Assembly: GCF_031312595.1 (NCBI RefSeq)
Contig: NZ_CP133592.1
Coordinates: 2,480,001 to 2,544,000 of the forward strand
Length of the DNA: 64,000 nt
Source of the DNA: Methanolobus sediminis
GTDB lineage: Archaea; Halobacteriota; Methanosarcinia; Methanosarcinales; Methanosarcinaceae
Reading direction: 5' to 3'
Positions within the stretch are counted from its first letter, which is position 1; each line of letters begins with the position of its first letter. The translations under genes and the position numbers were made by a program. Shown in pieces: positions 19,702-31,333 of this stretch. Under the pieces are notes generated by a model. It was not told the origin of the DNA and did not search any database. It saw only the letters and a program-made list of their open reading frames with translations.

Positions 19702-20547
19702 ATGAGCGAGGAACTTTTCTATCAGAACCAACTCCAGAACCTTGAAGATATCAAAGCTTCATACTTCAGCCAACTCGATGAAGTTGAGAAAAAGCGTGCT
19801 GAAATAGCTTTGAAGAAGGAGCAAATAAAAGCTGATGAAGCTCATATCATGGAAGAATATCACAGGATACGTGATGCAAAAAAGCTGATCACAAAAGAAT
19901 TTGAAAACCTTGCCAGTAAAAGCGAGATTCTCAAACAGGCAAAAAAGGAATACGAAAGAAAGCATGTTTCATTCTTAAAGCTGGAAGCTGAGCTTGCTAC
20001 TCGTATGGATAAATACGATATTGATAATAACTCTCTGCAGAAAAGAAATTGTGAGCAATATAGGGTTCTGCGTACTCAATATGAAGAAGAGCTGGCTGTT
20101 AGGAAAAGGCAAAAAAGCCTTGACAGGACAAGGAAAAAGCTTGAATCAAAGGCAAAGGAAATTGCTGACATTAAAAAAGAGATAACTTCCGGTGAGATGG
20201 ATATTGAGGTCGAAACTGAGAAGATAGAACGCAAGCGTGAGTATGTCAGGTATATGCGAGAGCTTCTCTCTACTCAGGAAGAGGAATTCTCATCTCGTGA
20301 AAAAGAACTCATTCAGTTAAAACAAAAGACCGAGGATGAGATTAGTAAGCAGGTAACTATTCATAGACAACAGCTTGATATCATCAAAAAGGATGCCAGG
20401 ATCGAACAGCAGATGGCATACATCAAGATCCTTGAAGATGATCTCTATGAACTCAAAAGCAAACTTGAAAAAGCAAATGAAAAATTGATTAATATGAAGC
20501 TTTTTTCAAACATATTCGAGCAAAATCAGGAGCTTCTTGCAAACTGA
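19702..20547 (+). CDS. Long coiled-coil protein of unknown function
   Basis: 281 residues that are almost entirely charged helix with heptad character (for example VEKKRAEIALKKEQIKADEAHIMEEYHRI and KQVTIHRQQLDIIKKDARIEQQMAYIKILEDDLYELKSKLEKANEKL). There is no signal peptide, membrane segment or globular domain. It resembles SMC-like or structural coiled coils in composition only, without any ATPase head. It has its own TATA box and no operon partner. Scaffold or cytoskeletal roles are possible but unsupported. Confidence 0.75.
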   Translation: MSEELFYQNQLQNLEDIKASYFSQLDEVEKKRAEIALKKEQIKADEAHIMEEYHRIRDAKKLITKEFENLASKSEILKQAKKEYERKHVSFLKLEAELATRMDKYDIDNNSLQKRNCEQYRVLRTQYEEELAVRKRQKSLDRTRKKLESKAKEIADIKKEITSGEMDIEVETEKIERKREYVRYMRELLSTQEEEFSSREKELIQLKQKTEDEISKQVTIHRQQLDIIKKDARIEQQMAYIKILEDDLYELKSKLEKANEKLINMKLFSNIFEQNQELLAN

Positions 20548-20623
20548 ATATCAATTTATTTTTTTAAATTCATACTCTTTTTTACTGATGTATCTGCGTA
20601 CATCATTTTTGTCAACAGGGCGA

Positions 20624-20633
20624 TTTATAAAAA
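20624..20633 (+). promoter_or_regulatory. TATA box for the 20.66-kb candidate RNA
   Basis: TTTATAAAAA lies 31-40 bases before the first base of the P1 stem, consistent with a transcript starting a few bases upstream of the structured element. Confidence 0.45.
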
Positions 20634-20663
20634 CTTAAATAACATTTGATTAATTTCAATCAT

Positions 20664-20744
20664 AAGGCACGGTGGCATGTGTATGCATGCCTTTGGCGGG
20701 AACTCGCATACCAACCAAAATTTACTGAGGGGTGCACGTGCCTT
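20664..20744 (+). ncRNA. Candidate small RNA with closed stem, two hairpins and possible pseudoknot
   Basis: AAGGCACG (20664-20671) pairs with CGTGCCTT (20737-20744) to close an 81-base element that is clearly more GC-rich than its surroundings. Inside are GGCATG/CATGCC (20674-20679 with 20686-20691, loop TGTATG) and TTTGG/CCAAA (20692-20696 with 20715-20719). The loop bases GTATG (20681-20685) are complementary to CATAC (20707-20711), allowing a pseudoknot. A T-run follows at 20763-20770. With its own TATA box, it looks like an independent RNA rather than a leader of the LysE gene 140 bases on. No known family was recognised. Confidence 0.55.
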
Positions 20745-20878
20745 TTGCTGTTAATGTGCAACATTTTTTTTGGATACGATTTTATTTCTTGATTCTGAAC
20801 AATATCTCAAAAGAATTATGATTACAATATATTTGAATCAACAAGTTTAAACATTTAGACTCAATACGCAGTTCGGGT

Positions 20879-21499
20879 ATGTCTCTGATCAATGAATTTC
20901 TGATATCCGGGATACTTCTGGGATTTGCTTCTGGCATATCACCAGGTCCGCTACTGACCATGACCATCTCAGAATCACTTAAACACGGTTCACGTGCAGG
21001 GATCAAGGTTGCAGTATCTCCATTTATAACAGACATTCTTATAGTTTCGATGATCCTGCTTTTTCTTCTGAAATTCGAGAATTACGACCCTGCAATTGCC
21101 ATGATAAGTCTGGGAGGCTCTTTTTATCTTATTTATCTTGGAATCTCATCCTTAAGAACAAAGAGTAGTGATCTCGATCTTGAAACAAAGAAGAGTGATT
21201 CTTTAAAAAAAGGAATTATTGTGAATTTCCTCAGCCCTCATCCATATCTGTTCTGGATTGCAATAGGCGGACCAATTCTTTTCAAAGCTCAGGACACCAG
21301 CATCTTTTCAGCAATACTTTTTGTTATAGGTTTTTATGCTTTGCTGGTCGGTTCTAAAATCACCATTGCAATGCTGGTGGGAAGATCAAGAGGCTTTTTG
21401 AAAAGCAATTATTATCTATACACAATCAGATCATTGGGACTTGTTTATGTGGTCTTTGCGTTCTATTTCCTGAAGCAAGGATTGGAGTTGCTGAATTAA
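20879..21499 (+). CDS. LysE/RhtB-family exporter
   Basis: A 206-residue inner-membrane exporter with about six hydrophobic helices. It opens with the family signature: LISGILLGFASGISPGPLLTMTISESLKHGSRAGIKVAVSP, in which the SPGPL turn and the later NFLSPHPYLFWIAIGGP loop are diagnostic. LysE relatives export amino acids or related small molecules; the substrate is not evident. A TATA-like ACAATATATTTG lies at about 20824. The structured RNA at 20664-20744 is upstream but ends in its own T-run. Confidence 0.88.
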   Translation: MSLINEFLISGILLGFASGISPGPLLTMTISESLKHGSRAGIKVAVSPFITDILIVSMILLFLLKFENYDPAIAMISLGGSFYLIYLGISSLRTKSSDLDLETKKSDSLKKGIIVNFLSPHPYLFWIAIGGPILFKAQDTSIFSAILFVIGFYALLVGSKITIAMLVGRSRGFLKSNYYLYTIRSLGLVYVVFAFYFLKQGLELLN

Positions 21500-30936: not shown

Positions 30937-31333
30937 TTTTTTCCTCCTGATTATGCATTATATAACTTTCTTGCAGCAAATAAATTAATATATTTACAAT
31001 TCATAATATTTATGTCCACGTTTATATCTCTTGTGTTTTCATCCCATATATCTCATCGCCATACATTAGTATTGTCAATCGTATATTTTTTATGCCAAAT
31101 CTATCATATTTTACATAGTATGTGTGCTATATAGGTAAAGTGGCAAAGGGAGTGAAAATTACCACCATCCTCTCATAATTGTACCATACCAACCAGTTTT
31201 TCACATTTTGAGAACACATGCTCCCATTGCTACTTAAATTAGCATTATAACCGATGAGTTCCTTTTTAGGATTGAAAAATTCATATTACTAAAAGCAAAT
31301 AAACTCTTTGGTGAGTAAATTCCAGGGTGAAAG
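30937..31333. other. Intergenic region, no gene seen
   Basis: AT-rich interval between divergent genes. A CCACC/CATACC-rich patch at about 31160-31200 resembles in composition the loop of the 2.6-kb element but shows no clear stem. Confidence 0.35.

Follow-up and report, generated by a model that had tools for sequence, protein, structure and literature searches.

We have identified a small RNA, S1, that from its comparative record appears to be a real, free-standing and conserved RNA of the genus Methanolobus. It is probably a trans-encoded regulatory sRNA masking translation initiation on the UPF0058 mRNA; S2, a second RNA, probably acts at the same site. The basis for this is the conservation of the RNA, its promoter and its helices, together with the complementarity of two independently conserved sequences. 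Both RNAs lie in the window, the whole stretch of 64,000 nucleotides analysed here (G000:C1:2480001-2544000), taken from an archaeal genome of 2.8 Mb. Their features are collected in Table 1.

Table 1. Features of S1 and S2 in the window (positions counted from its first nucleotide).
Feature	Position	Strand	Evidence or remark
Inverted repeat GATGTA-N6-TACATC, upstream of S1 promoter	20587..20604	+	sequence; aligned upstream regions
BRE/TATA promoter TTTATAAAAACTTAAATA	20624..20641	+	kept in nearly all S1 homologs
S1 small RNA (81 nt)	20664..20744	+	homologs in 20 of 27 Methanolobus genomes; covariation
P1 5′ arm	20664..20671	+	pairs with 20737-20744; compensatory changes in paralogs
P2 hairpin	20674..20691	+	20674-20680 with 20685-20691; two-sided changes in 6 of 7 pairs
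P3 5′ arm	20696..20698	+	pairs with 20733-20735; closes seed-bearing loop; G-U/A-U/U-A covariation
Seed GCATACCAACCAA	20706..20718	+	perfect complement of UPF0058 RBS/start codon, G000:C1:1456007-1456019
P3 3′ arm	20733..20735	+	covariation
P1 3′ arm	20737..20744	+	U-tract 20743-20746
S2 promoter CATATTTTACATAGTATG	31106..31123	+	conserved in 12 of 12 homologs
S2 RNA, different scaffold	31142..31231	+	homologs in 12 genomes
S2 second invariant block TACCACCA	31160..31167	+	alignment of homologs
S2 seed CATACCAACCAG, as in S1	31185..31196	+	invariant in 12 genomes

S1 lies between a coiled-coil protein gene (19702-20547), for which no Pfam match was found, and a gene for a LysE-type translocator (20879-21499; PF01810). 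It runs from AAGGCACG to CGTGCCTT and contains three helices. Its G+C content is 0.53, against 0.22-0.27 in the flanks, confirming the compact GC-rich element of 81 bases described in the first-pass annotation. The TATA promoter proposed there is borne out by its conservation, since nearly all S1 homologs have a AAAAACTTAAATA-type BRE/TATA box in their aligned upstream regions. In the window the TATA box CTTAAATA ends 22 nt before the start of P1, in agreement with the 19-22 nt spacing of promoter boxes in M. psychrophilus (PMC5378194), and the 5′ end of the RNA is predicted at about 20663-20664. The 3′ end had previously been placed at a run of eight T (20764-20771), but this lies 20 nt past P1, is not conserved among relatives and is not the end of S1; a U-tract directly after P1 (20743-20746) is conserved. 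The inverted repeat upstream of the promoter is a possible regulator site. A looser GTAt..tGTA..tCA motif is retained at this place in the aligned upstream regions of about 12 relatives, and the GTA-N6-TAC core of the repeat resembles archaeal NrpR-type operators.

The secondary structure of S1 is defined by comparison of its homologs. In a MAFFT alignment of 18 of these, the helices P1 (8 bp), P2 (7 bp) and P3 (3 bp) are 95.7% paired, and P3 encloses a large, mainly open loop. With four divergent copies included, 11 pairs have two-sided changes; none of 500 shuffles scored as high, and slid controls were far lower. The clearest compensation is found in P1, where GGCACG/CGUGCC becomes GGUGCG/CGCACC in the paralogs L057 and L086. 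The folding energy of S1 is not significantly different from that of shuffled sequences (z = -1.26), with 26 of 200 shuffles folding at least as well. P1 and P2 correspond to the closing stem of 8 bp and to the first of two internal hairpins in the earlier description, and both covary. The second hairpin (UUUGG/CCAAA), which belongs to the minimum-energy fold, is not conserved, and the comparative data give P3 instead. A pseudoknot suggested between GTATG and CATAC is confined to this genome, as the loop of P2 varies freely in the relatives while CATAC is constant.

How general is S1? Searches with BLASTN and a covariance model, the latter proposed in the first-pass annotation as a route to homologs with compensatory changes, found it in 20 of 27 Methanolobus genomes (E from 1e-22 to 1e-8). 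This number takes in one S1 truncated at a contig end and one degenerate copy (G015), in which P1 has decayed. The homolog in G026 is located at C1:90819-90910 on the minus strand. When named genomes were scanned with a pattern derived from S1, the archaeal matches were Methanolobus vulcani, M. profundi, M. bombayensis and M. psychrotolerans. The same two methods revealed nothing convincing outside the genus, in 85 genomes of the other genera of the family; covariance-model matches there (E 0.3-10) sit in coding or unrelated DNA and were rejected. Nor was any family in Rfam 15 above its gathering threshold, a permissive threshold giving only chance matches, in line with the first-pass annotation, which had matched S1 to no RNA family. 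We also considered and rejected archaeal guide RNAs. On reading the sequence and alignment, the ANA box of an H/ACA guide is absent after the closing stem, where P1 is followed by CGUGCCUUUUG. The C and D boxes of a C/D guide are equally absent by reading, with no RUGAUGA, and S1 has no Rfam snoRNA matches.

Further copies are found within the genus. Besides its intact S1, G002 has a degenerate second copy (L058, C1:1817371-1817460) at a distance of about 1.4 kb. Three paralogs, L057 (G014:C25:4796-4901), L086 (G015:C11:391402-391507) and L195 (G003:C4:60880-60977), share the P1/P2/P3 scaffold of S1 but differ in the apical insert and do not contain the seed. They may be sRNAs that act on other targets.

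Among the unpaired blocks of S1, CAUACCAACC is the most conserved in the 18-sequence alignment. It sits within a 13-nt stretch, GCAUACCAACCAA, that is perfectly complementary to the start region of the UPF0058 mRNA, AGGUUGGUUGGU-AUGC (here and below the hyphen precedes the start codon). The complementarity covers positions -10 to +3 and takes in both the start codon and the ribosome-binding region. We looked for targets with a pattern search of the own genome for the seed complement TTGGTTGGTATGCG. Outside the S1 gene there is no exact match to this 14-mer, and just two places match with one mismatch. One falls within a coding region, on its reverse strand, and the other is the start of the UPF0058 gene, AGGTTGGTTGGT-ATGCAT, where 13 nt pair perfectly. 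The number of 13-nt perfect matches expected over any start codon for the S1 seed is about 5e-4.

The UPF0058 gene is present in all 27 genomes. It is located 1.0 Mb from S1 and downstream of dnaG, with an acetyltransferase gene in convergent orientation to it. The UPF0058 leader is at least 96% identical at each position from -12 to -1, falling to 37-59% from -13 to -16; at matching positions a control gene is mostly 36-72% identical. Of the wobble positions, -4 and -1 show no variation but +5, +8 and +14 do, and the leader is therefore not conserved as codons. The leaders in other genera differ from those of Methanolobus. There is no canonical GGAGG Shine-Dalgarno sequence in the leader, so the pairing block is not simply an anti-Shine-Dalgarno sequence. 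S1 is encoded away from its proposed target and has a promoter of its own, and its complementarity to the ribosome-binding site and start codon is kept across species, as expected of a trans-encoded sRNA that masks a ribosome-binding site. The structure of a halobacterial UPF0058 homolog has been solved (2gf4), and the literature searched gave no paper on UPF0058 or on this structure.

Duplexes between each S1 and the leader of its own species reach -25 to -46 kcal/mol. In most species they are more stable than nearly all of the mononucleotide-shuffled controls. The weakest are those of G004, G015 and G003, all of which have altered RNAs. In the standard S1 sequence the probability that the seed is unpaired is only about 0.4-0.5. 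In G004 the seed is altered to CAUACCUCCC with the leader unchanged; the seed of this copy (L016) reads GCAUACCUCCCAU and contains the CCUCC anti-Shine-Dalgarno core. In G015 the leader is mutated (GGTTGAT-ATG) alongside the decayed P1 of S1, which is suggestive of joint decay. No compensatory changes between seed and leader were seen across species, as both are nearly invariant. Seven genomes keep the leader with S1 undetected, and an S2-like RNA was identified in just part of this set (G020 and G013). For the G013 sequence, L197, a search of other genomes gave no relatives, and it is accordingly a candidate only.

The seed is not restricted to S1. Intergenic CATACCAACC sites in genomes lacking S1 led to a hairpin in G020, and from there to homologs in 12 genomes, the window included. 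This RNA is S2, with two invariant blocks, TACCACCA and CATACCAAC, of which the former may be another seed. Pairing of the S2 core with the UPF0058 leader is calculated at -19 to -23 kcal/mol. The closing stem, GGCAAAGGGAGU/AUGCUCCCAUUGCU, has compensatory changes from G-C to A-U in L323 and L334 when read by eye; RNAalifold did not recover it from the S2 alignment because its 3′ arm shifts in length. S2 appears to have a scaffold unrelated to that of S1. In 10 of the 12 genomes S2 is placed 73-108 nt upstream of one conserved small gene, and given this constant placement it may also be a leader of that gene.

Two further places in the own genome bear the seed. S3 (L305, G000:C1 near 1963630, plus strand), between a SIMPL-like and a DedA-like gene, has an unpaired AAACCAACCAACCATACCAACCC, and after it a hairpin of 10 bp and a T-rich tail. 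S4 (L314, G000:C1 near 2779282) is a perfect 13-bp stem, AGTCTGATAGAGG/CCTCTATCAGACT, around CATACCAACCAA and the anti-Shine-Dalgarno-like TACCTCC. In another genome, L196 (G003:C40 near 5400) has a 10-bp stem, AGGTGTGTGT/ACACACACCT, around repeated CCAACC motifs. Here CATACCAACC is found immediately outside the stem, and the element is a possible seed-bearing RNA.

These observations suggest a mechanism. S1 would be transcribed from its own promoter as an RNA of about 81-84 nt, in which the scaffold of P1, P2 and P3 would present the mainly single-stranded seed. On pairing with the UPF0058 mRNA, the seed would block binding of the 30S subunit and so repress translation, and S2, having the same seed, could do likewise. 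The earlier suggestion of a compact, free-standing RNA that might act in trans is supported, and now has a proposed target.

UPF0058 may be one of several mRNAs targeted through GGUUGG(U) near the start codon, and we regard such a wider role for S1 as a serious possibility, falling a little short of evenly balanced. The start GGTTGGT-ATG is found in the gene for a 75-aa membrane protein, where 10 genomes retain it, and most close relatives have GGAGTTGGTTGGTTGA-ATG at the start of a TPR protein gene. There are 59 occurrences of the motif GGTTGGTN0-9ATG and 32 of a reversed control, yet most of the 59 places are inside genes. Moreover, the membrane protein leader is lost in more distant species, and conservation of the TPR leader partly reflects its own GGAG. 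Both are weaker target candidates than UPF0058.

The effect of pairing might alternatively be positive, with the UPF0058 mRNA activated or stabilized, for example by masking of an RNase site. There is precedent in one arm of sRNA154 of M. mazei, an RNA that stabilizes several targets (PMC5867862), and the leader has no canonical GGAGG. However, the pairing spans the start codon itself, which would normally exclude the 30S subunit, and we consider activation unlikely compared with masking of translation initiation.

It is likewise improbable that S1 is a structural or protein-binding RNA whose complementarity to UPF0058 is incidental. The junction J2/3 (CUUURGC) and helices P1-P3 are indeed conserved even in the paralogs that lack the seed. 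Against this, the seed is the most conserved of the unpaired blocks, it recurs in S2 on another scaffold, and the UPF0058 leader is conserved exactly across the complementary stretch. Least credible of all is a cis-acting leader or riboswitch of the LysE gene, which the first-pass annotation had envisaged as sensing a ligand linked to this exporter. In the window S1 does lie upstream of LysE in the same orientation, 135 nt away, but it terminates in a U-tract right after P1, and in 18 relatives the next gene differs almost every time. It may be a surface protein gene, the coiled-coil gene, a histidine kinase gene (in four cases nearby and on the opposite strand) or another. LysE follows directly in the window only, and on this synteny we rejected a role as its leader.

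Masking of UPF0058 translation initiation may itself be part of something larger. S1, S2 and possibly S3 and S4 could be unrelated sRNAs with one anti-start-codon seed, CAUACCAACC, converging on a small group of mRNAs that includes UPF0058, as an archaeal network of sibling sRNAs, with seeds that arose convergently or were shuffled onto different scaffolds. We put this forward tentatively, as possible rather than probable. In bacteria the Qrr and AbcR sibling sRNAs comprise several RNAs with one common anti-RBS seed; S1 and S2 share this property, but are archaeal, and their scaffolds look unrelated.

To our knowledge targets have been established for only a handful of archaeal sRNAs, almost exclusively in Methanosarcina mazei and Haloferax. 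In M. mazei, sRNA162 and sRNA41 mask ribosome-binding sites (PMC3510493, PMC5867862). Like S1, sRNA162 is intergenic and comes from a related methanogen, with a single-stranded region that base-pairs over the RBS of its target and proposed translational repression; it differs in its target, the transcription factor MM2441, and in having three stem-loops with a linker (PMC3510493). sRNA41 and sRNA154 are also trans-encoded with anti-RBS sequences, but their targets are nitrogen fixation and ACDS genes, and they address GGAGG-type sites in place of GGUUGGUUGGU for S1 (PMC5867862). Neither is known to have a homolog in Methanolobus. The M. mazei sRNAs were compared with S1 by description, and the covariance model of S1 had no match in the 85 genomes of other genera, four Methanosarcina-like ones of 3.7-4.2 Mb among them, save the weak ones in coding regions. 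Since S1 has no detectable homolog in other genera, it would form a new family, with a mode of action like that of the RBS-masking sRNAs of M. mazei. In Methanolobus psychrophilus R15, 195 intergenic sRNAs have been mapped, the main text of that study giving no target or structure for them (PMC5378194).

Our analysis provides a clean and testable pair, in which the seed of the RNA and the start region of its putative target are both conserved throughout the genus. It would tie UPF0058, a conserved archaeal family without known function encoded downstream of dnaG, to post-transcriptional control, and it suggests that several RNAs with one common seed are present in Methanolobus.
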